This document shows positions 14,737 through 33,574 of a stretch of DNA of 39,566 nt, piece by piece. The stretch covers positions 1 to 39,566 of the forward strand of contig CALXWJ010000041.1 of the NCBI GenBank assembly GCA_944392335.1. The letters run 5' to 3'. The stretch comes from an uncultured Clostridia bacterium. Lineage in GTDB: Bacteria; Bacillota; Clostridia; UBA1381. Numbering within the stretch: position 1 is the stretch's first letter; each line of letters begins with the position of its first letter. Made by a program: the position numbers and the translations under genes. Below the pieces are notes generated by a model. The model saw only the letters and a list, made by a program, of their open reading frames with translations, was not told where the DNA came from and did no database searches.

Positions 14737-14820
14737 AAAAAAAGTGCCACTTGCAAAAAGCAAATGACACTGTGTAAACTCTGATTACTGTGATTTCATT
14801 ATTGAAACCATGAAACTTAT
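14737..14820 (-). ncRNA. Repeated leader RNA, copy A
   Basis: A predicted transcript of about 84 nt from its own promoter. The order is: conserved ATATAAGTTTCA; hairpin GGTTTC/GAAATC (14792-14809); conserved AGTTTACA; then terminator stem AGTGTCATTTGC/GCAAGTGGCACT with TTTTTTT (14737-14743). The same plan recurs at 24.9 and 33.5 kb. It lies ahead of the DUF932/YqaJ/RecD2/primase operon. It may be an attenuator leader or a free small RNA. Confidence 0.65.
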
Positions 14821-14826
14821 ATGTTT

Positions 14827-14855
14827 ATTATATCAGAATTTCTCACAATAGTCAA
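14827..14855 (-). promoter_or_regulatory. Promoter of leader RNA copy A
   Basis: Minus-strand TTGACT (14850-14855), exactly 17 bp, TATAAT (14827-14832). Near-consensus sigma-A promoter. Confidence 0.8.
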
Positions 14856-14893
14856 TCCATTTATAAAAGAAAGAGCTGTTTGTCTACTATTGC

Positions 14894-14992
14894 TTATCTT
14901 TTACGTTTATTTGCCAGCATTAAACACATTGTAAAAACACCTATCAGTCCACCAAACATTGAGCCAATAATAAACATAAATAATGCAAACAT
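14894..14992 (-). CDS. DUF3789 membrane microprotein
   Basis: A 32-residue protein starting MFALFMFIIGSMFGG and ending MLANKRKR. The ATG lies 7 bases after GGAGG. One transmembrane helix with a glycine-rich face and a basic cytoplasmic tail match DUF3789, a family of tiny membrane proteins found in clostridial integrative elements. Its function is unknown. It lies between the methyltransferase terminator and the leader RNA promoter. The GxxGG pattern suggests helix packing or oligomers, which is inference. Confidence 0.75.
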   Translation of the reverse strand: MFALFMFIIGSMFGGLIGVFTMCLMLANKRKR

Positions 14993-15015
14993 TTCTTACA
15001 CCTCCAAAATAAATG

Positions 15016-15050
15016 TTAAAAAGAGGCGCTACCGAAGTATCGCCTCTTTC
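15016..15050 (-). terminator. Intrinsic terminator after methyltransferase gene
   Basis: On the minus strand AAGAGGCGATAC, a UUCG loop, then GTAGCGCCTCTT and TTTAACA. The very stable UUCG tetraloop is typical of real terminators. The microprotein gene 20-25 bases further on must be reached by read-through or from an unseen promoter. Confidence 0.85.
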
Positions 15051-15058
15051 CAAAATAA

Positions 15059-15985
15059 CTATGCAGTTTTTTTTCGTAGTTGCCACATACCCTTGCTGGT
15101 ATTTACGAAACATGAAGGATTATACTGCAGGGTCTGGCGAATTTTTTCTTTCCACCATTTATTTGATTTTGTTTTTTCATGATCTTGGATTTGATCATAA
15201 AGATATGAAAGCGGCACTGCAGTGCCACAGTCTTCTAATACTGCTGCCACAACATCTTTCCATGTTGCCTCTTTTGTGTCCCTTATATCATTCACAACTT
15301 GATGTGTGCACAATATTGGCATAATGAGTGATTCATCTTTACGCACAATCATTACATACTCGTGCAAAATCGGAATAAATGTGCCACTGTATTGTATATT
15401 ATCTGAAAAACAGTTATGTTGAGCCTTGATTATGACATTTTCAAGAGTTCCCGGCTTAACTATTTCAGATAGCATACTGTACAGTCTCCCTTTTTTCTTG
15501 ATATCTCCCATTAGGACTGCCATTCTGCCGCCTTTTTCAAGTGAGGAAAATTGCTTAAGCATTGCATAGTTCATCGCCTCCACAAACTTCTCCCATTTTG
15601 GTATACGTGATAAATCATATTTTATAGGATTATATCCGTATCTGCTTTCAACATCTGAAGCTTTGTACATAACATCAGAATATTTGATAATATCCCAGTA
15701 CGGAGGATGCCAGAATATAAATTCCGGACGCTCTTGAATATCACAATTCATGATATCAAATCCACTATGCAAATCATATATAAAGCTTTTTATGCCGCAT
15801 TTTTCAGCTGCTGCTTTTGTTGTACCACTGCCACACATATAATCGCATATCTCCATTGGGTGAAAGAAATCAATTAAATCCTCTATAAGCTTTGGAGAAC
15901 AATTACCACGATAGCGATTGTTGCCTCCTTCGCCTCGCTCAGGGTATGACACAATGCTGGTGAGTGTATGTTTTCTTTTTTCCAT
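15059..15985 (-). CDS. DNA methyltransferase (adenine/cytosine-N4 type)
   Basis: A 308-residue protein. AdoMet-binding motif I is CDYMCGSGTTKAAAEKCG (47-64) and the catalytic motif IV is HPPYWDIIKY (93-102). The first residue of the usual (D/N)PPY is replaced by His, as seen in some phage and integrative-element methylases. Residues about 240-305 form a winged-helix-like tail (ATWKDVVAAVLED, then GMWQLRKK) reminiscent of HARE-HTH domains. No restriction enzyme is nearby, so it is an orphan methylase, perhaps for protection or control of the element. It has a GAGGTG site and its own terminator. Confidence 0.75.
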   Translation of the reverse strand: MEKRKHTLTSIVSYPERGEGGNNRYRGNCSPKLIEDLIDFFHPMEICDYMCGSGTTKAAAEKCGIKSFIYDLHSGFDIMNCDIQERPEFIFWHPPYWDIIKYSDVMYKASDVESRYGYNPIKYDLSRIPKWEKFVEAMNYAMLKQFSSLEKGGRMAVLMGDIKKKGRLYSMLSEIVKPGTLENVIIKAQHNCFSDNIQYSGTFIPILHEYVMIVRKDESLIMPILCTHQVVNDIRDTKEATWKDVVAAVLEDCGTAVPLSYLYDQIQDHEKTKSNKWWKEKIRQTLQYNPSCFVNTSKGMWQLRKKTA

Positions 15986-16003
15986 AATACGTCACACCTC
16001 TCA

Positions 16004-16552
16004 TCAATACGGAACCCAATTATCTTCAATGTCAACCATTCGTTTACAGATGTGCTCTTCAGTTGTATAAACATTATATTCCGTATCATAAAGAAGAACT
16101 GATTCGTTTTCCAATGTTGAATTAATGTCATATGGAACTGTCACTATATTCGTGACTTCTTTAGTTTTTATATTTACCTCACAAGGTGTTATTACTTTTG
16201 AACCGTCTTCCCATGTTGTAACAAAGAAAGAATGGTGAGTCACTAAATTCAAATCCCGTTCTTTTATCATTTTATTATACTCTTGAAGTCTGTATCTAAT
16301 AATAAGGGTTGATATTATGAAAACAAGGATTAAGGACAGCGTATTTGTTACCAAAAACATATATCCATTTCCTTTTTGTGATAGATCTATCGCATATATT
16401 TCCATCATACCGATTCCCAGGGTGAGATATAAATATGTCTTAAGATTAAGATCTCCGCATGATTTTGTGCGAAGTAATTGTCTTATTTGAGGTACGTAAC
16501 CGACAGCCAGTATGATACCTCCAGCTAATTGCATAATATCAAAAAAAGTCAT
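16004..16552 (-). CDS. PQ-loop (SemiSWEET-like) membrane protein with cytosolic tail
   Basis: A 182-residue protein. The first 90 residues have three hydrophobic segments (about 5-25, 38-55, 65-87) with the signature GYVPQIRQLLRTKSCGDLN, including the Pro-Gln pair at 21-22. That matches bacterial SemiSWEET half-transporters, which dimerise to carry sugars. Unlike these (about 85-95 residues), it continues with about 95 polar residues (THHSFFVTTWEDGSKVITPC, then NVYTTEEHICKRMV). This tail resembles no family I know. The AGGAGG start is clear. On an element it may be a membrane sensor rather than a sugar carrier. Confidence 0.65.
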   Translation of the reverse strand: MTFFDIMQLAGGIILAVGYVPQIRQLLRTKSCGDLNLKTYLYLTLGIGMMEIYAIDLSQKGNGYMFLVTNTLSLILVFIISTLIIRYRLQEYNKMIKERDLNLVTHHSFFVTTWEDGSKVITPCEVNIKTKEVTNIVTVPYDINSTLENESVLLYDTEYNVYTTEEHICKRMVDIEDNWVPY

Positions 16553-16568
16553 TGTGGGACCTCCTTAA

Positions 16569-16787
16569 TTAAAATGGTAATTCATCTTGATATAATCGTA
16601 TTCTCCGACGATTCTGTATATATTTGATAGGGTGCCGATTAAATGTATGTCTGTGATATGTATATGTTCTTTTGCAATCAATACAAGTCAATATTGTACC
16701 ATACGAAACATACAAAAAATGAGTTTTACAATAATCACCGTGCTGTTCTACACGATGTTCATGAAGACATTTTCTTGGAATTTTCAT
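16569..16787 (-). CDS. Small Cys/His-rich protein
   Basis: A 72-residue protein from the ATG 8 bases after GGAGG (the longer frame adds five residues without a site). It contains CLHEHRVEQHGDYCKTHF and then CIDCKRTYTYHRH, enough Cys and His for one zinc site, in a strongly basic sequence that ends RRRIRLYQDELPF. It could bind nucleic acid. The start overlaps the end of the upstream gene by 29 bases. No family is recognised. Confidence 0.55.
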   Translation of the reverse strand: MKIPRKCLHEHRVEQHGDYCKTHFLYVSYGTILTCIDCKRTYTYHRHTFNRHPIKYIQNRRRIRLYQDELPF

Positions 16788-17661
16788 TGTGTTTACCTCC
16801 ATTTACAGATTGCACAGCTTTATAAATCATCTGATGACCAACTTCTGAAATACTATCCCAATATGCCCCAGAAAAAGCATCGTTTTTATCTAAAGCATTT
16901 TGGATTAAATCAGGCAAGTTAGGATTTTGAATAAGAGCTGTATATTGTTCATCGGACAAATATTTGAGTTCCTCCCAGGACTGAATTTGTGAAATATAAT
17001 CTTCAACTCTTGCTTCACTTATTTTCATATCGGCAATCAGTCCAATAAACACATCGGATAAATATAACTGCTTTTTCTCAACTTTGATAGCGTAGTGTGC
17101 TTCACAATATCTTCCATCAATATAACACTCATAACTGTTAACTCCAATATCTTCAAAACAATCGCCATCTTCTTTCAGTTCTGAAACAATTCCATTGTTT
17201 GCATCAAGTGCAAGATAATATTTAAACTCACGAATTGCATCATCCAGATTTGTATAAAGCTCACTTGAAAATCCATAATTGTCGTTATGTGCCCACTCTT
17301 CAACCAAGGAATACACTGTAATCTTTTTACCGGTATTTTCAAATTCGTTCGTAGACGTTATCATTTCAGGCGACATAATAACGCAATCAAGAACAATTTC
17401 TTTTAATTCCTTTGGTTGCTTATAGAGCATTGAAAATTTTCTTTCAAGCGCAGCAATATCATCTGGAAATATAGGCGGAGTAAATGAACAGTAAATATCA
17501 GGAGCTGAATTTCCGGTTTCTTTATCTTTGCCGTCTCGAATTTCTGTTATTATTCCTACCAGACCATCGTATGCGCTTTTATTATTTGCTATAATCTGTT
17601 CACCAATGGTATAGGATTTTCCTTTATATTTGAAGCTTTCACCTTTTGCAGATAAGATCAT
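16759..17661 (-). CDS. Unknown element protein
   Basis: A 300-residue protein. The first 50 residues (GESFKYKGKSYTIGEQIIANN, VGIITEIRDGKDKETGNSA) look like a small beta-barrel module (SH3-like), followed by helical segments with many Asp and Glu (WAHNDNYGFSSELYTNLDDAI; SEARVEDYISQIQSWEEL). No catalytic motif is evident. Similar proteins appear in clostridial integrative elements, as far as I recall, but without assigned function. It starts after GGGGG and overlaps the small Cys/His gene, so these two form one unit with the gene upstream. Confidence 0.5.
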   Translation of the reverse strand: MILSAKGESFKYKGKSYTIGEQIIANNKSAYDGLVGIITEIRDGKDKETGNSAPDIYCSFTPPIFPDDIAALERKFSMLYKQPKELKEIVLDCVIMSPEMITSTNEFENTGKKITVYSLVEEWAHNDNYGFSSELYTNLDDAIREFKYYLALDANNGIVSELKEDGDCFEDIGVNSYECYIDGRYCEAHYAIKVEKKQLYLSDVFIGLIADMKISEARVEDYISQIQSWEELKYLSDEQYTALIQNPNLPDLIQNALDKNDAFSGAYWDSISEVGHQMIYKAVQSVNGGKHNENSKKMSS

Positions 17662-17673
17662 AAATATACCCCC

Positions 17674-18792
17674 TTAAATATGACAATCAACGCCTACAAG
17701 AACGGTATCTTCATTCAAGGCATCTATTTGTCTGTTCAAATTTTTATGCCATGCTCTGTTACGTTTGTTTTTATCAGCGAAGTTAAATGAATCTTCCGAT
17801 GCATATTCGCCATCAATTAAGTACGCACAGGCAAAATTAGGGTATTTATATTTTCTTATTATTCTATTTCGAGCAAGAAACTGTTGCAGAGTTTCGTCCT
17901 TCTTATACTGAAAATCCCAGAAACCTGTAATACCGTTTTCAGTAATACGTCCGTAACACCCTTCAGGTAATTTTTTATCCAAGAAAGCTTTTTCAAGAAT
18001 TTTAAACCTTTTAGTGGCGTTTTCTTTTGCAACCCTGTACATTACATTCCACTCTATATCTTTTTTTCTTGCTGTACATACCCACTTATAACCTTTTGGT
18101 GCAGATTGTTCTTCATGGCTGCACCAGCTTTTTTCTCCAACTGAGTATTCTGTACACGAATCTTTTACGAGAAAAAGGAATGGCCAACGCCCACCAATTG
18201 AGTACCAATCGTAAAATGCATTTGGATTGTATACGTATCCATAACCATTGTAATATTCGTTATAGTAAATATATTTTTCATTTTCCGCAAAAGCATTAAA
18301 GTTTTTATAGAGCTTTTTGTATGGATAGTTTTTTAAAGCTTTCATTTTTTTTGCTTTTTTGGAACGCTTAGGGCGTTTTAACTGTCCAAAATATTTCTGA
18401 TAAACCTTACCATCATCACCGATGATAAATTTATCCCAAACCATGCGATTTTCTATGCTGACAATTTTACCATTAGGCAGTTTTATACAATCAATACAAT
18501 CATTTTCATATTCATTGCGCAATTCCTCGGTGTGATCTTCAAACTCCAAATATTCCGGATTATCAGTTTGCTCAGCATATGGTTCAAGTACTGAACAGAT
18601 TTCACTATCTACGCATCTGGCAAAAGCATTTGATAATCCATTCAGTCTTTCAATATAAATGTCCGTCATGAAATTTTTTCCATTGTTATTCCCGGATTTC
18701 AGTTTATTTAATTCTTCTTGAATTCGTTTATCTATTTCCGGCTCTTGTTCTACTTTTGGTATTTCTACTGTTACCAAGGTTAAATAATGCAT
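17674..18792 (-). CDS. Unknown protein with a phage-type DWYxIGGRW motif
   Basis: A 372-residue protein from the ATG 7 bases after AAAGGAG; the longer frame to 18828 runs through a hairpin and is unlikely. The first residues MHYLTLVTVEIP and the central NPNAFYDWYSIGGRWPFLF are features of a protein type widespread in phages and plasmids that I know only as hypothetical. A basic stretch (RPKRSKKAKKMKALKNYPYKK) and many Tyr and Trp residues suggest binding of nucleic acid or another polymer. It could be controlled by the alternative hairpins just upstream. Confidence 0.5.
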   Translation of the reverse strand: MHYLTLVTVEIPKVEQEPEIDKRIQEELNKLKSGNNNGKNFMTDIYIERLNGLSNAFARCVDSEICSVLEPYAEQTDNPEYLEFEDHTEELRNEYENDCIDCIKLPNGKIVSIENRMVWDKFIIGDDGKVYQKYFGQLKRPKRSKKAKKMKALKNYPYKKLYKNFNAFAENEKYIYYNEYYNGYGYVYNPNAFYDWYSIGGRWPFLFLVKDSCTEYSVGEKSWCSHEEQSAPKGYKWVCTARKKDIEWNVMYRVAKENATKRFKILEKAFLDKKLPEGCYGRITENGITGFWDFQYKKDETLQQFLARNRIIRKYKYPNFACAYLIDGEYASEDSFNFADKNKRNRAWHKNLNRQIDALNEDTVLVGVDCHI

Positions 18793-18817
18793 ATAAATAC
18801 TCCTTTCGTCATACAAC

Positions 18818-18882
18818 ATAACGGGCAACAGAAGAAATCAGCTGCCCGTTATGGTCAATTTTTACCCTCACTCGGGCAACTG
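18818..18882 (-). promoter_or_regulatory. Alternative-hairpin RNA switch candidate
   Basis: Read on the minus strand, segment 1 CAGTTGCCCG (18873-18882) can pair along 10 bp with segment 2 CGGGCAGCTG (18839-18848). The overlapping segment ATAACGGGCA (18843-18852) can instead pair along 10 bp with segment 3 TGCCCGTTAT (18818-18827). The two stems exclude each other. No T-run follows, so any effect would be on translation or RNA decay of the next gene rather than termination. Confidence 0.5.
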
Positions 18883-18889
18883 TTAAATA

Positions 18890-21190
18890 TTAAAATTGTA
18901 AATGTTTCTTAATTACTGATGTTAATTTGATAGGAATTTGTGCCAAGTCAGTTATGTCCAAAAAAGAATTTCCATAAATTCTTTCAATGTTGTTTTTATC
19001 GTCGCCAATGGCTGCTGCGATGAATAGTATTCCTTTTTTTTGATATTCTTGTTTGATTCCACGCAGGTCCTCCTCAGCAGCTGTACCACTGTATCCACTG
19101 TGAGCAGGTTGTCCGTCGGATATAAGAATAAGTATTTTTACATCCTCCGAACGTTTTGACAATTGATCTGCAACAAATCTCAGTGCAGCTCCGTCACGAT
19201 TACTGCCTCTGGCATGAATGTCCATCAGTCGATATTTATCACCGTTATCAAATCCTTCAAATTCAGCATATGAAAACAATTCAACATCATCTCTGCTGGT
19301 AGAGTGACCGTATATCATAATTGGGATATCAAGGCTTTCGCAAAAATCATATAAGATAATGGCGGCTGCCCTTGCATATGTACAGCGATCAGCACTGCTC
19401 ATAGACCCTGATTCATCAATTAATAATCCAACAGATAAATGTGGTATTTCATTGGGCAATGCGTTTTTTGAAAAAACTTTCCCATCGTTTCTGCAAAGAG
19501 CCCTTACTTCCAATCGCCGCCCCATCATAAGCCCAGTTTGTTTACCCCCGCGCCTATGATCTTCAAACTGACGAAGAATACTCTTTTTCAACTGTTTTGA
19601 AATGGCAAGAAGTGGCGCTGATATTTCATTGTACTGATCTATCAACCCTTCATCAACGCTGTTTATGCGCCTTACACAGATATTAACTCCCTGATGTATG
19701 TCACCATACGCTATATTTTGAGCTACATCTCTTAACTCTTTAAGCCTTGCATTTTCAAGTTCTTTGCAAGCCTCTTTTTCAGCCATTTTATCAAGAAGTC
19801 GTTCTATATCCGATGCGGCTCTATCGTATTTTTGACGTTGATAATCATTATCATATTTTGTGGTTCCTCCTTGTGGTTCTGACAGTATATCAGTCTGATG
19901 ATATGGAATTCTACCTCCTTCAGAAGCAGTCACATTTTGTTTCCCACTTCCTTTCAGTGTTCCATCAATAGGAGATAATCCGTTTTCAACATCAGATCCT
20001 GCATCTTCTTCTCCAGACTCAGATGGCAAAATATTATTTTCCGTTTCAGTTTGAGGCATTGTATTTTTGCTTCCAGACTCATTTTTATCTGCATTTGAGT
20101 TGTCAATGCTGTTCGTTTTTCCCGCATCGACCTTGGTTTTTGCTCTTTTTATTGCGGTAGTCTGCTTACTTGAAGTATTTGAAGGCTGGGCAACTGGTGT
20201 ACTATCACCTGAACCTGTCGTCGAACTCCCATTCATCGAACCGAGCATATTTGCAAGAGTTTCAGAAATAGTAATTGTTGAACCCATTGATATAGCATCA
20301 TTATGTCTTTTTTTACACTCTTCAAGATAATCTTCAATATATTCCCAACAATGAACGAGAATGTAATTTGTAATTTGTATTCGTTCTTTTGCTGAATTGC
20401 TCATTAATGCATTATCAATATCAAGAATAATATCAAATACTGTCTTGATACGAACATCATTAAGGGGTTCATCACCGTATTTTATCTCACCATATTTAAC
20501 ATAAGATAAGATATTCTGCAAAATACTTTCAAACAGATGCCTTTTTCCTGAATCCTCATCTTCAATCAACTGCGTCACAGTAGGCATCTCTTCAAAATGA
20601 TGGTCTCTCAGACTTTCCAAACCATATTTGAGTGTTCCGGGGAAATTAATCAACATACGTTCCTCAATATATCCATCTTCAATAACATTACTTATAAAAG
20701 ATGCTACGTATTGAAGTGCAGTCATATTTTCCGGACAATCATTAGCATAATCCCAAAGTGCAGATTCATTTTTTACATCTGCCTTTGTCTTTAAAACAGG
20801 TTTTTCAGGAAACCATTTTCCTTGTGCCAGCATATTCATATGAGTCTGTGATGCAAGAAAATCAGTGTATAAAACATGACCAAGTTCATGAGCAAAAAAG
20901 CCGCATACAATTTGATACCGGTTTTCGCGTCCTCGAACTTTTGTCAAAAACTTATTACCACAGTTTATCAAAATACTTTGATTATCCGTAAATGCTGTAG
21001 TATCACTGTTTGTTTCCCATATCAGATTAACATGAACACGGCGATTATATCTATATCGCCGTGTTTGCGCTGCTGCCATATCTTCAAAATGTCCCGCCAA
21101 AAGACGAGATGTAAAGAATTGCCGATCGGTTATTTTACTGCGTTTTTCATTTAAACGCTGTTTCACTAATTTATGATTCACCCGTGCCAT
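18890..21190 (-). CDS. CobT-like VWA protein with HExxH metallopeptidase motif
   Basis: A 766-residue protein. Residues 101-105 are HELGH, a zinc-peptidase-type motif inside CGFFAHELGHVLYTD. A low-complexity Ser/Thr/Asn linker (about 330-440) separates this from a C-terminal von Willebrand A domain whose metal-ion site is intact: LLIDESGSMSS (590-600), a Thr/Ser-rich middle and LISDGQPAHS (about 690). It lies directly before (in transcription, after) a MoxR/CobS-like AAA+ protein. Such AAA+/VWA pairs act as metal-insertion or remodelling machines, and CobS/CobT-like pairs are known in large phages. The substrate here is unknown. Confidence 0.75.
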   Translation of the reverse strand: MARVNHKLVKQRLNEKRSKITDRQFFTSRLLAGHFEDMAAAQTRRYRYNRRVHVNLIWETNSDTTAFTDNQSILINCGNKFLTKVRGRENRYQIVCGFFAHELGHVLYTDFLASQTHMNMLAQGKWFPEKPVLKTKADVKNESALWDYANDCPENMTALQYVASFISNVIEDGYIEERMLINFPGTLKYGLESLRDHHFEEMPTVTQLIEDEDSGKRHLFESILQNILSYVKYGEIKYGDEPLNDVRIKTVFDIILDIDNALMSNSAKERIQITNYILVHCWEYIEDYLEECKKRHNDAISMGSTITISETLANMLGSMNGSSTTGSGDSTPVAQPSNTSSKQTTAIKRAKTKVDAGKTNSIDNSNADKNESGSKNTMPQTETENNILPSESGEEDAGSDVENGLSPIDGTLKGSGKQNVTASEGGRIPYHQTDILSEPQGGTTKYDNDYQRQKYDRAASDIERLLDKMAEKEACKELENARLKELRDVAQNIAYGDIHQGVNICVRRINSVDEGLIDQYNEISAPLLAISKQLKKSILRQFEDHRRGGKQTGLMMGRRLEVRALCRNDGKVFSKNALPNEIPHLSVGLLIDESGSMSSADRCTYARAAAIILYDFCESLDIPIMIYGHSTSRDDVELFSYAEFEGFDNGDKYRLMDIHARGSNRDGAALRFVADQLSKRSEDVKILILISDGQPAHSGYSGTAAEEDLRGIKQEYQKKGILFIAAAIGDDKNNIERIYGNSFLDITDLAQIPIKLTSVIKKHLQF

Positions 21191-21219
21191 TACAGGGTAA
21201 CCTCCTCTCGTGTATAATT

Positions 21220-23091
21220 TTATGCTGTAACCCTTTTCCTTGAAGGAGCAAAAATAGGTTCAAGCACCGAGCTTATCAAAGCTTCTCGCTCCATTTCGTC
21301 AGATGTTGCCTTGCTAATAACTGTGTATAGAGCAGATTCATACACATTGTTTGTTATTTCGCTACTAATGATCCAGTCGATAAGACTACGCATACCGTAT
21401 GAACCATCTGTTACACCATGGTTTCTGCAGTATTCTGCTATATCATTTACTACTTGAACCATCTGTCCGACTTGGTATTCGTCTGTTGCCCCTGTCACGC
21501 TCATAGCTCTCTGAACCATTATTTCAGGAGATGGTGATTCTACATCTTGTACCAGACTCATTCTATCGAGAACAGATTGATTCATACCCCGGCATCCTTC
21601 ATAACTGATATTAGTTGTAACAACTACTACAGCATCAGGATGGCGTTCAATGATTTCACCTGTCGGTAACGTAATAGACCCCGTCTGCTCAAGAAGAGAG
21701 TTCAATCCAACTAAAACTCCAGGTTGCATAATGGTCGTTGGTTCCTGTATTTCCACAAGATATCCATTTTTAAGAGCCTTAAGAAAATCAGTTTCAACAT
21801 ATGTAAAACTTTGACCTGAAGATTGTGATGACTCCGTGCGCTTTAGAAGCTGTTTTACCTTTTCTGTGACCTTGTCAAGCACAATTGCCATACATTCTTG
21901 AGATGTAGCAGTCATTTTTTCCATACCGGTAAGAGCTTGATACACACCTGCGGGATCGTAGTCCATATCATCAAGATCAGGAAGCTTCATAAGCTTCGCA
22001 ACATTTGTGTAGTTTATACCACCCATTGCTTTTAGTTGTTTACACTCAAAATCAAGCTGTGCATCTCCTGTTGAACCTCCATCTGAATCCGGGAAAATCT
22101 GTCCTATAAAATCAAAAATTTCAGTTCCAGCCGAACAAGTATACTTCATATACGGAAGACCAAGACCGGCAGCAATCGCCTTTGCACCCATTGTCTTACC
22201 GGTTCCAGCAGGACCACGCAACAAAAAATTACGCATCTGCATTGACTTGCCTGTAGTACACTGAGCATGTTTGCAGATATCAACCACTTCGTGTGGTATG
22301 ATATACCACTCAGGCAGCTTTGGAACAAGCAATTCTTCAGTTGGAGATAAAGTTCTTTCATGAAGTTTATATTTTCCTACAAAATCACTGTGTTCCACAA
22401 AAGTGCTTGCTTTTTTTATGATTGCAGGCCCGGTTGTTGCAAAAATAGTGAATTCTCCGGCAATAACATTTGTGGGAGTAAAACTTCCGGAATCTATATG
22501 ACTCTTGGCAACCCGCATAATATTCCCGGATTTGTCAATTTCAACAGGTAAGTGAGCGCTGCACCCATCATCCTTGATTCTTCGATATGCATTATCACAC
22601 ATATATGCCATGCTATTTGTAGTGAGTGTTATGTCTGAGAATCCTGAAAGAAATTGATCGTAATATGTGTCAAAATTCTCTTTGAATTCATCATCTGTCA
22701 ATAATGATGGTAACATTGCCATCATTATTGCAGCACCATCTCTTGCAGAAGAATGTGCTACATAGCTTTCAAGTACCTCTGTGCTTTTGTCATATACACT
22801 CGCAAGGATAGATCCGCTAGTACAATCGTATACAACAATATGATATTCGTCCGGACTATTAGATGATTTATACTCTGCAACGGCTCTGTGATCAATTGTG
22901 CCAATTGCCCCTAAATCACTTCCATTCATACATTTACAAGCTGCATTAACTGCCTTTATTACTGTAGCACAAAGTGTTGACTGCGTACCGTCTCCATATT
23001 TTGACGATACTTTAACCTTCTTGCTTTTTAATGTATCAAATGGCTCTGGAAGAGTTCGGCTGTAATTAAATAAATTTGTTACATTGCTCAT
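21220..23091 (-). CDS. CobS/MoxR-like AAA+ ATPase
   Basis: A 623-residue protein from the ATG (MSNVTNLFNY) 8 bases after AAAGGAA; the longer frame would overlap the upstream gene. The N-terminal 270 residues are a separate domain of unknown type. Walker A is GPAGTGKT (293-300). The Walker B region reads GYLVEIQEPTTIMQPGVLVGL, with Glu where many have Asp-Glu. Sensor 1 is VVVVTTN, then GCRGMNQSVLDRMSL, the arginine-finger region of MoxR/CobS proteins. It should work with the VWA protein encoded 29 bases downstream. Confidence 0.8.
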   Translation of the reverse strand: MSNVTNLFNYSRTLPEPFDTLKSKKVKVSSKYGDGTQSTLCATVIKAVNAACKCMNGSDLGAIGTIDHRAVAEYKSSNSPDEYHIVVYDCTSGSILASVYDKSTEVLESYVAHSSARDGAAIMMAMLPSLLTDDEFKENFDTYYDQFLSGFSDITLTTNSMAYMCDNAYRRIKDDGCSAHLPVEIDKSGNIMRVAKSHIDSGSFTPTNVIAGEFTIFATTGPAIIKKASTFVEHSDFVGKYKLHERTLSPTEELLVPKLPEWYIIPHEVVDICKHAQCTTGKSMQMRNFLLRGPAGTGKTMGAKAIAAGLGLPYMKYTCSAGTEIFDFIGQIFPDSDGGSTGDAQLDFECKQLKAMGGINYTNVAKLMKLPDLDDMDYDPAGVYQALTGMEKMTATSQECMAIVLDKVTEKVKQLLKRTESSQSSGQSFTYVETDFLKALKNGYLVEIQEPTTIMQPGVLVGLNSLLEQTGSITLPTGEIIERHPDAVVVVTTNISYEGCRGMNQSVLDRMSLVQDVESPSPEIMVQRAMSVTGATDEYQVGQMVQVVNDIAEYCRNHGVTDGSYGMRSLIDWIISSEITNNVYESALYTVISKATSDEMEREALISSVLEPIFAPSRKRVTA

Positions 23092-23113
23092 TTCATAATT
23101 TCCTTTCTGCATT

Positions 23114-23851
23114 TCAATGCGCGAGATTAATTTGTATTCCGTCGGGAACACATTCAGAATTTTCGATTTCCGCTTTTGCCAACTGTTTGCAAACGTCCGC
23201 CCAGCTCTCTTTCACAGGCAATTCATCACTGTATATGAGTACTGACGTTTTACCAGTGCCAATCGCTTCATTGCATCTGTTGTTAATTTCAATAATGTGT
23301 GCTTCAACCCACTCAAATGCTAACAGCTCATAGTTTTCAGGCAAATCATCATCTTCCATAATTATATCTGTTTCATCATTTTGATTGATATGCTCTGTTT
23401 CTTCGAAGATAATATTGGTGACATGTAAATTTGTAATTACTACCTTTGCGCGGCGGTATCCTCCCGCACGGTTTAAAAGTATAAAAACATCATCACCATT
23501 TTCAATAAGCTGGAGAGCATTGGATGCCTCCCAAATCCATCTTGCCTGCGGATAATGTTGATGAACGAGTTGTGTTATCTGTCTAAGAATAACAGTATAT
23601 GCAATCTCATAAACATCACTCTGTGTATATATCTTTGATGGTTTTGTAGGAGATAATGGTTCTGGATCCGATGCAATAATGTCAGAGCGATCGGTTGCAC
23701 GGAAAAGTAAAATTATCAAGGCAACAAACAACGAAAGTATCATCAGCAGGAGCAGTGGCCATAACCTGCAAATTAATGTTATAATCCCTAAAACTCCTAT
23801 AAGTATCATTGTTTCTCTGACAATATTGCTTTTATCACTAAATTTTTTCAT
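23114..23851 (-). CDS. Membrane-anchored unknown protein of the AAA+/VWA operon
   Basis: A 245-residue protein from the ATG (MKKFSDKSN) preceded by AAGGAG. Two close hydrophobic segments (about 14-50: ETMILIGVLGIITLICRL, then PLLLLMILSLFVALIILL) anchor it in the membrane; the remaining 190 residues are acidic and cytosolic. The soluble part contains ARWIWEASNALQLIENGDDVFILLNRAGGYRRAKVVI. It lies 23 bases before the AAA+ gene. It may recruit the ATPase to the membrane, which is inference from position only. Confidence 0.6.
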   Translation of the reverse strand: MKKFSDKSNIVRETMILIGVLGIITLICRLWPLLLLMILSLFVALIILLFRATDRSDIIASDPEPLSPTKPSKIYTQSDVYEIAYTVILRQITQLVHQHYPQARWIWEASNALQLIENGDDVFILLNRAGGYRRAKVVITNLHVTNIIFEETEHINQNDETDIIMEDDDLPENYELLAFEWVEAHIIEINNRCNEAIGTGKTSVLIYSDELPVKESWADVCKQLAKAEIENSECVPDGIQINLAH

Positions 23852-24325: not shown

Positions 24326-24802
24326 TTATTCTTCATCAAAGAATCCATTACCGCCAAAATTTTCATAACCCGTAAAATTTTCGGAATCTATTGGATTCTG
24401 TGCAGAAGACGTATTGGTATTTGTATTAGTACCAGCAGTGGAAGATACAGGAGAATCCTCTTTTGCTTTGACAGATCCTGCATACTCGATCTCATCAAGA
24501 ATAATCACAGTATTACTTTTTGATTCGCCGGTTTTCTGATCTGTCCAGCTATCTTCATCAAGTCTGCCAATGATGTTGATAAACGAACCTTCTTTAAGCT
24601 GCATTTTTTTAATACGTTCACATACACTGTTAAACGCTTTGACTGAGTAATTCAGCCAACGTGCATTGTTTTCAGCACGACTGTCATAGATTTTCTTTCC
24701 GATACGGAATCTAACAGAATTACCGTCTTCGGAATACTTTAATGCTGGGGCGCCGTCATAGCCTTTTGATACAACGACATTTGTTGAGAATACTTTCAAC
24801 AT
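24326..24802 (-). CDS. ssb: Single-stranded DNA-binding protein
   Basis: A 158-residue SSB. The OB-fold is residues 1-115: VRFRIGKKIYDSRAENNARWLNYSVKAF, INIIGRLDEDSWTDQKTGESKSN, VIILDEIEYAG. A Ser/Thr/Asn linker and an acidic tail ending NGGNGFFDEE follow. The end differs from the classical DDDLPF tip, because the aromatic pair precedes the acids, so binding to host partner proteins may differ. It protects single strands during the element's replication and recombination. It has its own terminator and stands behind the second leader RNA. Confidence 0.85.
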   Translation of the reverse strand: MLKVFSTNVVVSKGYDGAPALKYSEDGNSVRFRIGKKIYDSRAENNARWLNYSVKAFNSVCERIKKMQLKEGSFINIIGRLDEDSWTDQKTGESKSNTVIILDEIEYAGSVKAKEDSPVSSTAGTNTNTNTSSAQNPIDSENFTGYENFGGNGFFDEE

Positions 24803-24884
24803 GATAAAAACTCCTTTCTTGCAGGGATTGCCTGCTATAAAAATATATTTATTTCAACCCATAAATGGGTAGAAATCTGAAAAT

Positions 24885-24972
24885 AAAAAAAGTGCCAAAA
24901 GCACACATGTGCTATTTGACACTTTGTAAACTTAGAAAACTATGATTTCTTTTCAGAAACCTTGAAACTTAT
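24885..24972 (-). ncRNA. Repeated leader RNA, copy B
   Basis: A predicted transcript of about 88 nt upstream of ssb. ATATAAGTTTCA, hairpin GGTTTC/GAAATC, AGTTTACA and a long terminator stem (AAGTGTCAAA pairs with TTTGGCACTT, inner AGCAC with GTGCT) ending in TTTTTTT. Its layout is identical to copies A and C. A short hairpin (ACCCAT/ATGGGT) lies between it and ssb. Confidence 0.65.
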
Positions 24973-24978
24973 ATATTT

Positions 24979-25007
24979 ATTATAGCATACCAAGTTTAAA
25001 TAGTCAA
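24979..25007 (-). promoter_or_regulatory. Promoter of leader RNA copy B
   Basis: Minus-strand TTGACT (25002-25007), 17 bp, TATAAT (24979-24984). Confidence 0.8.
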
Positions 25008-25618: not shown

Positions 25619-25643
25619 ATACAATTCTTTCAGAAAAATCACC

Positions 25644-26616: not shown

Positions 26617-26637
26617 TTTTATAGCTCCTTCGTATAA

Positions 26638-26668: not shown

Positions 26669-26680
26669 TAGACACTAACA

Positions 26681-26709
26681 ATTATAACACATTTATATTT
26701 GCTTGTCAT
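26681..26709 (-). promoter_or_regulatory. Promoter of the zinc-ribbon gene
   Basis: Minus-strand ATGACA (26704-26709), 17 bp, TATAAT (26681-26686). Confidence 0.65.
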
Positions 26710-26830
26710 CGGCAATCTTGTGCCATTTTTGTGCCTTTTTTATGCCATCACTAATAACACCAATTTATTAAGCAACTTACCCATAAAATTTATCAAAAAC
26801 AACATAACTTTAAAGATTTCAATAATAATA

Positions 26831-26864
26831 AATAGGGCGGTAAGCATAATACTTCCGCCCTATT
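26831..26864 (-). terminator. Intrinsic terminator
   Basis: A perfect 10-bp stem AATAGGGCGG/CCGCCCTATT downstream of the gene at 26.9-27.4 kb, with a T-rich tail on the minus strand (TATTATTATT). It closes the operon before the promoter at 26.7 kb. Confidence 0.75.
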
Positions 26865-26876
26865 AAGCACTATAAA

Positions 26877-28179: not shown

Positions 28180-28205
28180 TATAATTTACCTCCGTAATAA
28201 TAGAC

Positions 28206-28236
28206 AAAGGTGCCAAAATAAATATTGGGCACCTAT
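28206..28236 (-). terminator. Terminator-like hairpin between the YkgJ genes
   Basis: Stem AGGTGCC/GGCACCT, extended by weaker pairs, with a short T-run (TTTG) on the minus strand. It stands 25 bases before the next gene, so it may attenuate it. Confidence 0.6.
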
Positions 28237-28243
28237 TTATATG

Positions 28244-28912: not shown

Positions 28913-28972
28913 TATATAATCCTCCCGTCAAAGATCTTCATATGTGGATCTGACTTTGTCTTCCAATCGTCA

Positions 28973-29773
28973 TTAAATATTATCATAGACGCCACCTTGC
29001 TTTTCTAGATAATCTTCCAGTATACTAAGTATTTTTTCAGTATGATGAGAATACTCATGCAAACGTTTTTCAAAATCAATCATATCACTCCAACTACACA
29101 TAAAAGCATCTTCCAATTCTAATTTTTCATTCGTATCAGATATAGAGTCATATGGAATTGATAATACGCCTTCTTTAGCAAGAACCAAATAATAGCCTGA
29201 ATGCCTACTATCTGGTAACGGGAAATGCCAATACAGCTGATTTCCGAAACGAATGTGATTTTCATTACATATTTGGGACAAATCAGAATACTTTCCATGA
29301 GATTCATCAAGCTTTTGCATAATCATATCTTTACTCATAAGCATAGATGTATCTACAGCACAATTATCAATAAGTAAGGTAGTAGTATTAATTCGAGGTA
29401 ATTTTATGCTTTTTTCATCAATACCGATTAACCAAAGTCCGTCCTCATAGATGGAACGATGATGCCAAGTGCTTGAAATGATTATTTTAAGAAGTGCTTC
29501 AGATAAATCCATGCCAAGTGATACAGATTTATCTGATTCTTCAGGAAGGCTTTCATGATAAATAAAGTCATTCGCATATACCAAGCCCAACAACAGTCTT
29601 AATTCTTTCCGTGTGAATTGGGTATTTACAGCCGCGATGTCCCAATAATTATCATCTTCAGGACTCGCCTTGCAAACAATATTTCTGCCAAGTTGTTCGG
29701 AGATAAATCCACTAATATAATAAGATATTTCACTCCAATTAAGTCGGAGTGCATTTTTTAAATATTTTCTCAT
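28973..29773 (-). CDS. Unknown protein upstream of the YkgJ pair
   Basis: A 266-residue protein starting 5 bases after AAAGGAA. It is rich in aromatic and acidic residues (DDNYWDIAAVNTQFTRKEL, HHRSIYEDGLWLIGIDE, RFGNQLYWHFPLPDSRHSG) and ends with a helix (HHTEKILSILEDYLEKQGG). The part NQLYWHFPLPDSRHSGYYLV recalls the GYLWQASMNGRNGGYLVLY of the zinc-ribbon gene at 11.3 kb, suggesting a shared module of the element. No family is recognised. Confidence 0.5.
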   Translation of the reverse strand: MRKYLKNALRLNWSEISYYISGFISEQLGRNIVCKASPEDDNYWDIAAVNTQFTRKELRLLLGLVYANDFIYHESLPEESDKSVSLGMDLSEALLKIIISSTWHHRSIYEDGLWLIGIDEKSIKLPRINTTTLLIDNCAVDTSMLMSKDMIMQKLDESHGKYSDLSQICNENHIRFGNQLYWHFPLPDSRHSGYYLVLAKEGVLSIPYDSISDTNEKLELEDAFMCSWSDMIDFEKRLHEYSHHTEKILSILEDYLEKQGGVYDNI

Positions 29774-29996
29774 AATGACTTCCTTTCTGCCTTTTTAAGG
29801 CATAGTATAAAATTAATAAATTGATAGTTTATGAGTAGAATTTCTGATTTGTAATACTTTTTGCTGCATATTTACTTCTAAATATTACAGTAAACACTTT
29901 ACTCACAAAAAGTTTTTATCTATCTCTCTGGTGAAATTCAACGAATACTTTGTAACAGGAGCTGCATTCCGACAAAACTCTTCAGTCTGGATTCTT
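29774..29996. other. Gap with no clear gene
   Basis: About 220 bases. On the minus strand two short open frames without start signals (one reading QTEEFCRNAAPVTKYSLNF, then KVFTVIFRSKYAAK one base out of phase) suggest a decayed small gene. Neither has a ribosome binding site. No promoter or terminator is evident. Confidence 0.3.
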
Positions 29997-30251
29997 TTAA
30001 CATTCGCATCCTCTCATGTTAAATAAGTTTTTTATAATTGGTCCGGGCAAAGAGTATTGTTCATTCGTTGTGAGATAGTAAATGCTGTTTTTAGTTTCAA
30101 ACTTAATTTCTGAACCAGAAATCTTCTCAACTTTCATTACAACAGAAGTTCTTCGAATTAAACCATCAGACTCGCTTATAAAAGCGCTTTCTCCAACGGT
30201 AATTGGATACGCCGCAAAGCCTGTAATTTTAATTACTTTTTTGTTATTCAC
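29997..30251 (-). CDS. Small beta-barrel-like unknown protein
   Basis: An 84-residue protein with a GTG start, 7 bases after AGGAGG. The sequence KITGFAAYPITVGESAFI, SVVMKVEKISGSEIKFETKNS, YYLTTNEQYSLP suggests a five-stranded SH3-like barrel, seen in many short element proteins. It follows the ligase terminator, with about 15 bases between. The function is unknown. Confidence 0.55.
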   Translation of the reverse strand: MNNKKVIKITGFAAYPITVGESAFISESDGLIRRTSVVMKVEKISGSEIKFETKNSIYYLTTNEQYSLPGPIIKNLFNMRGCEC

Positions 30252-30266
30252 ATCAATTCCTCCTAA

Positions 30267-30303
30267 GCAAAAACGGCGGACAACATTGAGAGTTGCTCCG
30301 CCG
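30267..30303 (-). terminator. Intrinsic terminator after ligA
   Basis: Stem CGGCGGA-CAAC pairing with GTTG-TCCGCCG (one bulge), followed on the minus strand by TTTTTGC. It lies 20 bases past the ligase stop. Confidence 0.8.
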
Positions 30304-30321
30304 CAAGTTATTCTGACAATA

Positions 30322-32301
30322 TCAATTGTTTGCTGTCAGCATGTCTTCAAACTCATCTTCTGTCAGCGTTCTGATACCAAGGCTTAGAGCTTTTTGAAGC
30401 TTGCTGCCTGCCTTTTCACCAACAATAAGATAATCTGTCTTTTTTGTTACAGATGACGCTGGTTTTGCACCCAGCGAAAGAATTTTAGACTGAATTTCAT
30501 CACGAGTGTAGTTTTCGAGTTTTCCTGTAGCAACTATAGTTTTACCTGAAAATACAGTGTTATTATTTACGTTCATCGTATAATTCTCCTTTATAAATTC
30601 GATTTTATTAAGTAACGGACGCCATAGCTTTGCTTCGTCTTCGTCCGAATACCAGGTATAAATATTTTTGTTCATTATTTCTCCGAAATCAGAAAGATTT
30701 GTGAAATCAAAGCCTTCTGCAATGGCTTTCTCAAAAGCAGTCCAATCACCTTTGAAATATTCATTTAAGATTCGTCCTGCATGTCTGCCTACCATTGGAA
30801 TACCCAAAGCGGCAATAAACTTATCCAATGTGCATTTACGGCTCTTTTCAATAGCATTATGCAGTCTAATATAGGATTTTTCACCAAACCCGTCAGTATT
30901 TATTATTTCATCCTTGTGTTTTTCGAGATCATATAAATCCCCAAAATGATGAATCCACCCATGTCCGATGAATTTTTCCAAAGTGATCTCCGAAAGCCCT
31001 TCAATATTCATGCGTGTTTTTTCGCAGAAATGAGCAAACTTCTGTACCAATCTGGCAGTGCAATGCTGATTTTCACAAAATAAAAACATGGTTCCGCCGG
31101 AACTGGCTTTCATATTTAAAGGCTCTCCACAGCACGGACAAATCATAGGTAGTTTATATGTATTACTCATTGTTGTATTCTCTGCAATTTGAGGAATAAT
31201 CATATTGGCCTTATATACTTTAACTGTATCTCCTATACCGAACTTAAAACTATTGAAAATGTCTACATTATGCAGATACGCACGTGTAACAACTGTTCCT
31301 TCAATAGTTACAGGCTCTAAAATTGCAGTGATGCTTACCATACCCGTTCTTGTAGTAGCAAGTTCGACACCAAGAAACTTTGTTTCATAAAGTTCGTCCT
31401 GCCATTTAAGTGCGATTAGGCGGTTTTCGTGATGACCTGTTGCACCGAGACTTTTACCATAAGCAAGATCAGCATATTCCATAATAAGACCATCAACAGG
31501 ATATGAATATTTTTCAGGTTTAAACGTTTTTACTTTACTCTGTATCATATCAAATGATGCCGGTCCATATATTCGTTTGTACGGTACGACATCAAATCCT
31601 TTTGATGCGAGGAATATTAACTGTTCTTCTTTATCAAGATGTTTGATTTCATTAGATATAAGCTCAAAAGCAAAGAACTCAAGCTTTCGTTTTTTTGCCT
31701 CGTTTGCATCTAACTTTCTGGTACTTCCTGAAGCCAAACCTCTTGGATGGGAATATGGCTCTGTCAAACTCGAATTGATCTCATTGAAATTCTTCCACGA
31801 GATTACGCCTTCACCTCTAACTTCAAAGGACTCATAAATTGGCACTGATAAAGGCACATTTAAAAACTGTTTAACCGTATGAGTCACATCTTCGCCGACT
31901 AAGCCTTCTCGACCTCGTGTAATTGCCTGAATCATCTTTCCGTTCTCATATCGCAGTACAAGAGTTAAACCGTCAAGTTTCCAGGATAAGATAACATCCT
32001 TGCCTGCAGCAAAATTAACGAGATCATTGATTGATTTAGTCTTATCGGCTGATAGCATTGGTTTTGAATGAATAACCTCTGTCAATCCTTCCATAATTTC
32101 ACCTGATACCTTCTGTGTAGGGGAACCTGACAGAATGAGTTTTGTATCGTGCTCAAGCGAAGCCAATTCGTCGTATAACCTGTCATACTCACGATCGCTC
32201 ATAATCGGGCATTCATCCCTGTAGTAGGCGATATCTGCCTTGATCAATATTTCGACCAGTTCTTTCATTCTTTCAAGATTAGTTTTATAATTCGCACCCA
32301 T
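30322..32301 (-). CDS. ligA: NAD-dependent DNA ligase
   Basis: A 659-residue LigA from the ATG (MGANYKTNLE) 9 bases after AGGAG. The order is complete. First comes the NMN-binding Ia domain (AYYRDECPIMSDREYDRLY). The adenylation domain follows, with catalytic Lys 108 in WKLDGLTLVLRYENG and later GVISWKNFN. Next is an OB-fold. The four-Cys zinc finger is CPCCGEPL...CENQHC. HhH repeats (GLSEITLEKFIGHGW, LGIPMVGRHAGRIL) precede a BRCT domain (VFSGKTIVATGKLENYTRDE). It seals nicks with NAD. Variations such as SWKLDGLTL (usually KxDGxA) mark it as an element ligase distinct from a chromosomal one. Confidence 0.85.
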   Translation of the reverse strand: MGANYKTNLERMKELVEILIKADIAYYRDECPIMSDREYDRLYDELASLEHDTKLILSGSPTQKVSGEIMEGLTEVIHSKPMLSADKTKSINDLVNFAAGKDVILSWKLDGLTLVLRYENGKMIQAITRGREGLVGEDVTHTVKQFLNVPLSVPIYESFEVRGEGVISWKNFNEINSSLTEPYSHPRGLASGSTRKLDANEAKKRKLEFFAFELISNEIKHLDKEEQLIFLASKGFDVVPYKRIYGPASFDMIQSKVKTFKPEKYSYPVDGLIMEYADLAYGKSLGATGHHENRLIALKWQDELYETKFLGVELATTRTGMVSITAILEPVTIEGTVVTRAYLHNVDIFNSFKFGIGDTVKVYKANMIIPQIAENTTMSNTYKLPMICPCCGEPLNMKASSGGTMFLFCENQHCTARLVQKFAHFCEKTRMNIEGLSEITLEKFIGHGWIHHFGDLYDLEKHKDEIINTDGFGEKSYIRLHNAIEKSRKCTLDKFIAALGIPMVGRHAGRILNEYFKGDWTAFEKAIAEGFDFTNLSDFGEIMNKNIYTWYSDEDEAKLWRPLLNKIEFIKENYTMNVNNNTVFSGKTIVATGKLENYTRDEIQSKILSLGAKPASSVTKKTDYLIVGEKAGSKLQKALSLGIRTLTEDEFEDMLTANN

Positions 32302-32438
32302 GTGCATTTTCTCCTCTCTGATATTATTCAATCTACACATACTCTTTGATAATGTATAACGTTTCTTTGAAATTGTTTAAAAACACAACACAGGTATACA
32401 TATCATCATCTTTATCGCATAGATTATTTGCTTGTGTT

Positions 32439-32885
32439 TTAAAGCTGCTGTTTAATGTGCTTCTCATATGCATCCGGAAGAATCCTTTGGAATAACTCCA
32501 TATATCGCTTGAATCCCACTTCATTCAGTGGTCCTTGCAGCGATGTCTGACTCCAACAAATCATTTCTTCTTCGGGGATGACATATTTATCATCAACAAA
32601 TTTATTGCCATCATAATTCGGGCAATGTGGCTGCATTAATTTGTCCATTTCCGTTTTTGAAGTGATTTCAAGAATAAGTTTTCCTTTTTTCTCAGCGATT
32701 GCATAGAGCAGTCGATCCATATAACCAAGTGATTTATAATAGCGAAGGTGTCCGGCAAGTGTCCTCAATGCTGAAAATTGTAGTTTTCGTACTCTGTCCG
32801 GCTTTTGCTCTGAAACAAGCACTTCTGAAAAAAAGAGTATGAGAGGGATGTCAAATCCTTCTACATTGACATCAGGCACAATCAT
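32439..32885 (-). CDS. Unknown protein upstream of ligA
   Basis: A 148-residue protein from the ATG (MIVPDVNVEGFD) that overlaps the previous gene's stop by 14 bases. The longer upstream frame is a shadow of that gene. It is helical, with KPDRVRKLQFSALRTLAGHL and LLYAIAEKKGKLILEITSK, then MDKLMQPHCPNYDGNKF. No family is recognised. It is coupled to the neighbouring 115-residue protein and leads into ligA. Between them at 32302-32438 a short frame (ending TLYIIKEYV) is too weak to call. Confidence 0.5.
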   Translation of the reverse strand: MIVPDVNVEGFDIPLILFFSEVLVSEQKPDRVRKLQFSALRTLAGHLRYYKSLGYMDRLLYAIAEKKGKLILEITSKTEMDKLMQPHCPNYDGNKFVDDKYVIPEEEMICWSQTSLQGPLNEVGFKRYMELFQRILPDAYEKHIKQQL

Positions 32886-33219
32886 CACCCCATTTCTGGC
32901 AATGCTTGATATCTTCAAATACCAAAGCATCGTTCCGGTCAGCAAATTCCATACGAACCAATTCAAAATAGCCAGTATCTTTTTCGGTATAAAGCTGGAT
33001 ATGAGAAATCTCCATTCCGATAAGTTCATGCAATTTCCCATTTGCATATTCTTCACCGAAATAGACACCTTTGTACTTGGCTTCAAAAACCGAATCCTCA
33101 TTGTCATACTCGGTTTCATCCCAATTAAGTGACACGATCTTTCCGGACTTTAGTTTGACTTCAATAAAGTCTATACTAAGATCCGACAAATTTGTTTTTG
33201 CTTTTAGATAGAGTATCAT
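32872..33219 (-). CDS. Unknown 115-residue protein
   Basis: It starts 7 bases after AAGGAGG. The sequence SIDFIEVKLKSGKIVSLNWDETE and KYKGVYFGEEYANGKLHELI reads like a small beta-strand domain with many acidic residues, ending EDIKHCQKWGDDCA. It is the first gene of the ligase operon behind leader RNA copy C and another terminator hairpin. No family is recognised. Confidence 0.55.
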   Translation of the reverse strand: MILYLKAKTNLSDLSIDFIEVKLKSGKIVSLNWDETEYDNEDSVFEAKYKGVYFGEEYANGKLHELIGMEISHIQLYTEKDTGYFELVRMEFADRNDALVFEDIKHCQKWGDDCA

Positions 33220-33321
33220 TTCTATCCGCCTCCTTATAAAGAATTTTATTTATATCACGAGAATGCCGAACGGCTTTCTCGGAATATACCTGAATATAGC
33301 CGTAACGGCACTGATATATAT

Positions 33322-33358
33322 AAAAAAAGGGCCCAAAGAATGATTCTTTGAGTCCTTT
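33322..33358 (-). terminator. Terminator hairpin before the ligase operon
   Basis: On the minus strand AAAAGGACTCAAAGAA, a 3-nt loop, TTCTTTGGGCCCTTTT, then TTTATA. The long stem has one mismatch and one wobble pair. It stands between leader RNA copy C and the first gene. Two further inverted repeats (ACACATAT...ATATGTGT and GCTTCTT/AAGAAGC) lie just upstream, at 33386-33444. Confidence 0.7.
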
Positions 33359-33453
33359 TGAGTTTTCACTCGCGATTATTTTATAACACATATGCAGCAG
33401 CTATTGCTGCGTAATATGTGTTCTGTGCTTCTTAACAAAGAAGCAGAAGAAAT

Positions 33454-33539
33454 AAAAAAAGTGCCTGATGGTTCTATACCTTCAGACACTTTGTAAACTC
33501 GAAAACTGTAATTACCCGATTGGCAACTATGAAACTTAT
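33454..33539 (-). ncRNA. Repeated leader RNA, copy C
   Basis: A predicted transcript of about 86 nt. ATATAAGTTTCA is conserved. The hairpin is GTTGCC/GGTAAT instead of GGTTTC/GAAATC, with pairing preserved through compensatory changes. AGTTTACA follows, then a terminator stem AAGTGTCTGA/TCAGGCACTT with TTTTTTT. It lies between the secreted-protein gene and the ligase operon. Confidence 0.65.
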
Positions 33540-33545
33540 ATTGTT

Positions 33546-33574
33546 ATTATATCAGATAATCAAATTTTATGCAA
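33546..33574 (-). promoter_or_regulatory. Promoter of leader RNA copy C
   Basis: Minus-strand TTGCAT (33569-33574), 17 bp, TATAAT (33546-33551). Confidence 0.7.

Follow-up and report, generated by a model that had tools for sequence, protein, structure and literature searches.

A covarying leader RNA repeated at the heads of DNA-metabolism operons on mobile elements of Clostridia

The put RNAs of phage HK022 (putL and putR, two copies per genome) lie near the transcript start at more than one promoter and make RNA polymerase resistant to terminators (PMC9378689). The Gram-positive integrative element Tn916 carries canT, a cis RNA that overrides intrinsic terminators ahead of DNA-processing genes; its activity was seen with fragments of ~340-450 nt, in a single copy and after excision (PMC11658703). 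The conAn system of pLS20, composed of the ConAn1 protein and the conAn2 RNA, provides processive antitermination of Gram-positive mobile-element operons (PMC8955417). The dfn leader, on which LoaP acts, combines a small hairpin with an intrinsic terminator ahead of long operons (PMC12691694), and the STAXI RNA motif, formed of tandem pseudoknots, is associated with ssb and DNA-handling genes (PMC2864571). Here we describe a leader RNA that is present in three copies, A, B and C, in a 39,566-nucleotide stretch of DNA from an uncultured Clostridia bacterium of the UBA1381 lineage (GCA_944392335.1, contig CALXWJ010000041.1; hereafter, the window), each copy at the head of a DNA-metabolism operon of an integrative element.

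The leader resembles put in that it belongs to a mobile element and occurs at several promoters, close to the transcript start. However, put is an RNA of ~70 nt with two stem-loops found in an E. coli phage, whereas the present leader has one variable hairpin between repeated boxes and is found in 3-5 copies in Clostridia. It differs from canT in its ~50-nt core, which is repeated at each operon, and from conAn, which is a single system that works with a protein partner at one long conjugation operon. The likeness to the dfn leader lies in the small hairpin followed by an intrinsic terminator, but dfn has a UNCG hairpin and requires a NusG paralogue, whereas the hairpin here is variable and most of the searched hosts have no NusG paralogue. 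STAXI shares the association with ssb and DNA-handling genes.

None of the three copies matched a family in Rfam 15 at the gathering score or at E<=5, a comparison that the preliminary description of this DNA had proposed. This lack of a match separates the copies from STAXI; for put, EAR and canT, the sequence comparison extended to the lack of an Rfam match only. In pLS20 (positions 1-50000, a range that takes in the start of the conjugation operon), the best match of our covariance model R2, with E-values that are to be taken as rough, had an E-value of 0.14, was located away from the start of the conjugation operon and was not significant as evidence of homology to conAn2. A literature search, outside of which most subscription papers lay, returned no description of the leader. 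By these comparisons, the leader is a new RNA family that is absent from Rfam.

Three copies of one leader plan

The preliminary description had reported the three copies at positions where all of them were found, each on the minus strand. They share a common plan consisting of a -35 element, a 17-bp spacer, TATAAT, the box ATATAAGTTTCA, a hairpin (P1), the segment AGTTTACA and an intrinsic terminator (T1) that runs from AGTGTC to GGCACT and a T tract. The exact 17-bp spacing claimed previously holds in all three copies. The number of T residues after GGCACT, given as seven, needed correction: six more follow, or seven when the final T of GGCACT is counted. The parts of the copies, all on the minus strand, are as follows.

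14827-14855, minus strand: copy A promoter, TTGACT (14855-14850), 17 bp, extended -10 TGnTATAAT (14832-14827)
14811-14822, minus strand: copy A box 1, ATATAAGTTTCA, 5' end of the predicted transcript
14791-14810, minus strand: copy A hairpin P1 (TGGTTTC AATAAT GAAATCA), from predicted fold and covariation
14772-14790, minus strand: copy A linker with the second AGU box and the GUUUACA box
14737-14771, minus strand: copy A first intrinsic terminator T1, AGTGTC...GGCACT, stem 14771-14743, followed by the T tract
14682-14711, minus strand: copy A second intrinsic terminator T2 (AGCCGTCA...TGACGGCT TTTGTTATA), ahead of gene 1, -16.9 kcal/mol
24979-25007, minus strand: copy B promoter, TTGACT, 17 bp, TGnTATAAT
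24924-24974, minus strand: copy B leader core, with box 1 at 24974-24963, P1 at 24962-24943 and linker at 24942-24924
24885-24923, minus strand: copy B terminator T1, stem 24923-24891, followed by the T tract
24821-24875, minus strand: two extra hairpins of copy B, kept in an alignment of 19 ssb leaders
24875-24852, minus strand: the first of these, TTTC..GAAA, without an adjoining U tract
24835-24821, minus strand: the second, GCAGG..CCTGC, adjoining the Shine-Dalgarno sequence
33546-33574, minus strand: copy C promoter, TTGCAT, 17 bp, TATAAT; the TTGCAT-type -35 recurs in the family
33491-33541, minus strand: copy C leader core, with box 1 at 33541-33530, P1 at 33529-33509 (arms changed, still paired) and linker at 33508-33491
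33454-33490, minus strand: copy C terminator T1, stem 33490-33460, followed by the T tract
33326-33358, minus strand: copy C second terminator T2 (AAAGGACTCAAAGAATCATTCTTTGGGCCCTTT TTTTATATA), -13.2 kcal/mol

Box ATATAAGTTTCA is identical in copies A, B and C. The arms of P1 change from GGTTTC/GAAATC in A and B to AGTTGCC/GGTAATT in C with pairing kept, in agreement with the earlier claim. Exactly three occurrences of the string AGTTTACA-N-AGTGTC were counted in the window, compared with none in shuffled windows, and these three are also the only ones in the whole 3.64-Mb genome. The RNA of each copy folds 4.6-5.4 standard deviations better than its shuffles (z -4.6 to -5.4). Judged by sequence and predicted structure, the three copies are genuine homologues.

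Distribution, covariation and conserved anatomy

A first covariance model, R1, was built from four sequences. The search with a covariance model that the preliminary description had called for retrieved further copies, nearly all in Clostridia, and R1 detected the leader elsewhere in the host family; the window copies score 96-106 bits and family members 62-97 bits. When 84,980 species genomes were scanned with a sequence pattern, 62 stretches were returned. Pattern matches in Pseudomonas, Flavobacterium, Photobacterium, Rossellomorea, Aerococcus and one other Bacillota genome were judged to be chance because they have neither a promoter nor a match to the model; of the remaining stretches, the majority come from Clostridia and have both. 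The RNA is also present in two metagenome-assembled genomes labelled Bacteroidales and Phoenicibacter, which may reflect either a binning error or true spread. On viral contigs, a first pattern scan yielded chance matches only, and a second found two real copies (L088 and L093), both of which are present in isolate genomes as well.

Among 391 Clostridia genomes drawn evenly, five carry the RNA, and a close homologue (68-100% identity) of the 380-aa protein encoded behind copy A is found in four, all of them among these five. Across 398 genomes of the phylum, the RNA was confined to the genome from which the window comes. Exactly three copies each are present in the isolates Blautia parvula, B. 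schinkii and Schaedlerella arabinosiphila, and Acutalibacter sp. 1XD8-36 has seven, five of which head consecutive operons in one 29-kb row.

Covariation, which the preliminary description had claimed from three copies, is strong across the family in both the 5' hairpin and the terminator. It was assessed in two alignments that together contain 68 distinct sequences (about 70 distinct copies): A4, comprising 43 distinct, mostly pattern-selected sequences aligned with MAFFT without structure, and A5, comprising 32 rows found by the model, of which 29 distinct sequences served for the pairing figures. Shuffle counts ignore relatedness. In A4, 92.1% of the pair cells are standard, compared with 37-51% when the partners are slid, and double-sided changes occur at all six P1 pairs and at five upper T1 pairs. 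In A5, which is fitted to the model, 91.9% of the pair cells pair. The base of T1, fixed by the search pattern in A4, covaries in A5, with U-A replaced by C-G in six sequences. Thus, neither of the two sequence-level outcomes that the preliminary description had named as refuting, a lack of covariation and a lack of further copies, arose.

The 17-bp promoter spacer is retained in 63 of 67 distinct copies and the extended -10 (TGn) in 59 of 67. Box 1, with the consensus YAGUWUCA, begins ~4-7 nt after the likely transcription start. P1 has 6-9 bp, and its stem sequence, loop sequence and loop length are free to vary. AGUN is repeated directly after P1 in 63 of 66 copies, and GUUACA ends the linker, with T1 next to it. 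In transcripts truncated before the 3' arm of T1, the 5' arm of T1 is paired in only 15 of 43; thus, no conserved antiterminator fold is apparent. We infer a role as contact sites for the two AGUWUC boxes and the GUUACA box, and a role as spacer or scaffold for P1. The leader is a covariation-supported RNA family at the heads of the replication and repair operons of a mobile element. Hosts of this element are common gut Clostridia (Blautia, Schaedlerella and Acutalibacter), and the culturable ones with three copies make the function of the leader directly testable.

Operon position, tandem terminators and the proposed function of the leader

Each copy in the window precedes a set of DNA-metabolism genes. 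The assignments of ssb, ligase and primase in the preliminary description stood, whereas its DUF932 label for the 380-aa protein was dropped after no match was found in the Pfam, NCBIfam or PHROG profiles.

13482-14624, minus strand: operon A gene 1, 380-aa protein, no Pfam, NCBIfam or PHROG match
down to 6672, minus strand: later genes of operon A, encoding a YqaJ recombinase, RecD2 and a primase
24326-24802, minus strand: operon B gene 1, single-strand DNA-binding protein (ssb; PF00436)
30322-32340, minus strand: operon C, NAD-dependent DNA ligase (PF01653, PF03120, PF00533)

These positions recur across the family. At 61 places, the RNA lies ahead of ssb (32), the 380-aa gene (13), the p115/p226/ligase cluster (8) or AAA/VWA genes (1); at the remaining seven, the downstream DNA is too short or rearranged, and two of these have an ssb-type upstream flank. 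The distance from leader to gene is ~60-90 nt in most ssb leaders and ~110 nt in most leaders of the 380-aa gene/YqaJ/RecD2 operon. Within one operon type, a copy is similar to its orthologues from other elements, and the copies are therefore old and separately maintained. Homology, covariation, fixed position and the three-copy layout that recurs in isolate genomes strongly support the view that one RNA family places three DNA-metabolism operons under one control.

Ahead of gene 1, a further strong intrinsic terminator, T2 (-12 to -21 kcal/mol), is present in each of the 13 leaders of the 380-aa gene and each of the eight ligase leaders. Thus, in 21 of 21 leaders of these two operon types, the RNA occupies the position of an antitermination leader, in cis and upstream of terminators that precede the gene. 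In the 19 aligned ssb leaders, two hairpins are kept before the Shine-Dalgarno sequence.

We propose that a strong sigma-A-type promoter would start a transcript composed of box 1, P1, a linker repeating the AGUWUC box and the terminal GUUACA, and that RNA polymerase would then meet T1 and, in operons A and C, also T2 before reaching gene 1. By default, most transcription would end at T1. Upon activation of the element, the boxes and P1 of the emerging RNA would make polymerase resistant to terminators, either by themselves or with a factor encoded by the element or the host, so that all operons of the element are read jointly. It is very probable that the leader controls read-through in cis in one way or another; to its being a cis-acting processive antitermination RNA we assign a probability of roughly 0.6. 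This reading is favoured over a one-terminator switch because two operon types have a second terminator, no alternative fold is conserved and the position in cis is fixed. From sequence alone, we infer that T1 and T2 terminate transcription in vivo, that read-through is regulated and processive, and that all copies obey a common signal.

Several results weigh against processive antitermination. In the 32 ssb leaders, the same terminator scan gave three weak matches only; these leaders have T1 followed by hairpins that are not terminators, for which a single-step attenuator would do. Counts of terminator-like structures within the operons are near the shuffled expectation, and processivity therefore rests on T1 and T2 only, there being no clear internal terminators. 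In addition, a co-occurrence search for a reader protein gave no single candidate that stands out, since many genes are common to the elements with this leader and missing in relatives with other leaders. Candidate partners include the sigma-region-4-like protein encoded at 4018-4485 and small proteins encoded upstream of ssb.

Distant relatives of the element carry unrelated leaders. In genome G169, where homologues of the core genes have 29-40% identity, five copies of another leader RNA are present, with sites before the 380-aa homologue and before ligase among them. The plan is that of the main family (promoter, structured leader, terminator and second terminator), with GUGCGYGG.. hairpins, GAAUGUCGUGAUUGUAAGUAAGAGC..GGCUCUUUUUUU and the second terminator after them. 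A third leader type is found in genome G012, where its three copies have at least 93% identity to one another; it consists of the promoter TTGACAAATAAAGGTTTTTGTGGTATTATA, a leader and tandem terminators, and its promoter core recurs elsewhere on the contig. Neither type had a match in Rfam, in a comparison that covered the leaders L101 and L103.

G169:C9, 56225-55916, 60130-59948, 71461-71213 and 73775-73690, minus strand: four leader copies (L126-L129)
G169:C15:44771: fifth leader copy of G169
G012:C40, 24344, 6768 and 166, minus strand: leader copies of the third type (L130-L131)

That unrelated multi-copy leaders recur in relatives argues for the shared multi-copy leader as a working principle of these elements and against an accident of duplication. 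In related elements, the RNA itself seems to have been exchanged and the design kept. These findings point to a way of joining several operons of such an element in one regulon, by a leader RNA and terminators that they share and not by a common repressor site alone. More tentatively, the leader might represent an undescribed class of ~50-nt processive antitermination RNA with a box-hairpin-box form, acting on RNA polymerase directly or with an element factor, which builds a regulon from the head of every main operon and is exchanged in relatives for unrelated RNAs that do the same job.

The preliminary description had left three readings side by side, namely attenuators, processive antitermination and small RNAs; processive antitermination is now favoured, small RNAs have become unlikely, and a simple attenuator remains for the ssb leader. 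As a single-step attenuator or riboswitch, each leader would bind a ligand or an RNA-binding protein through its boxes and P1, with the sole effect of blocking T1 formation. The compact, aptamer-like conserved region immediately ahead of T1 and the one clear terminator of the ssb leader would suit this, but the upstream region has no conserved fold that competes for the T1 arm, P1 varies in sequence and loop, unlike a ligand pocket, and T2 would continue to halt polymerase wherever it is present, in both other operon types. With two unrelated terminators in series before gene 1, blocking T1 alone would hardly suffice, and we consider this explanation unlikely for the family as a whole. Far less plausible is a LoaP-type mechanism, in which a NusG paralogue would bind the small leader hairpin and override the terminator. 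The anatomy is that of the dfn leader, a small hairpin and then an intrinsic terminator heading long operons (PMC12691694), but dfn hairpins are of the UNCG type and nearly identical in sequence, unlike the freely varying P1, and the host genome (99.5% complete) has one NusG, in secE-nusG-rplK. A single NusG was the result in eight of the ten copy-bearing genomes searched (G000, G031, G439, G313, G500, G503, G504 and G506), among them B. parvula, B. schinkii, Acutalibacter and further genomes that have several copies, and LoaP was rejected as a general requirement. The search was able to see paralogues, as it found eleven NusG-domain genes in Schaedlerella arabinosiphila (G501); several of these form adjacent pairs, an unusual expansion of LoaP-like paralogues.

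Two further explanations are a small RNA and a constitutive guard without regulated read-through. An 85-nt transcript that ends at T1, with its own promoter and terminator and a short stable fold, could work in trans as a small RNA, its place before operons being incidental. As a main function this is improbable, because the copies lie at operon heads on the same strand and at type-specific distances, with the same genes downstream across Clostridia; T2 and further hairpins are also kept between T1 and the gene, and a complementary box elsewhere in the window is not above chance. As an antisense partner for the boxes, TGTAAACT, which occurs once only outside the copies, was rejected. Low expression can be set by leaky terminators without any regulator, and T1 and T2 might accordingly do nothing but damp a strong promoter, with the boxes a product of recent duplication. 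This constitutive arrangement, to which we give slightly more credence than to a small RNA and clearly less than to an attenuator, sits poorly with boxes that are kept across families while P1 and the top of T1 diverge with compensation, with copies that are old and separately maintained, and with the unrelated multi-copy leaders of the relatives.

The carrier element and other genes of the window

The window shares ~30 genes in the same order, at 44-89% identity, with contig C46 of G439, where the copy of the element begins ~0.3 kb from the host iPGM gene. This gene order and this start identify the carrier as an integrative element of ~38 kb. At the element end lies an HTH_17 excisionase-like gene (764-1003), with no adjoining integrase either in the window or in G439 (in L115, the gene is at 5576-5827, minus strand). 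No relaxase, type IV secretion system or phage structural gene was seen among the scanned window proteins, and the search for a known plasmid or phage origin turned up only weak or unannotated relatives. A Tn916-type integrase occupies the matching element end in Blautia parvula, and the RNA of Acutalibacter is found at the head of a PcfJ operon as well; thus, some members of the element family are probably linked to conjugation.

Within the ssb operon of nearly all related elements lies a gene pair for a VWA (CobT-like) protein and an AAA ATPase (18890-23151, minus strand, in the window), which recalls the CobT/CobS or MoxR-VWA chaperone pairs. The sigma-region-4/DUF1492-like gene (4018-4485, minus strand), whose product is possibly a late-type activator, is kept in related elements; a short open reading frame (3834-4025) overlaps its end in another frame, the two forming a block at 3834-4485.

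The window also has a strong Rfam match (70 bits) to the pemK RNA (RF02913) at 1459-1522, minus strand, located upstream of a small sigma-region-4-like open reading frame (1005-1379) and not of a pemK gene. The region around it (~1540-1610, minus strand) has the block GCGGCTATCCGTCTG..CAGAAC.A.GAGCACTGATATA in common with positions ~100-370 (minus strand) of L028, the Candidatus Merdivicinus DNA that follows a copy of the leader, and this shared block is perhaps part of a longer noncoding RNA.

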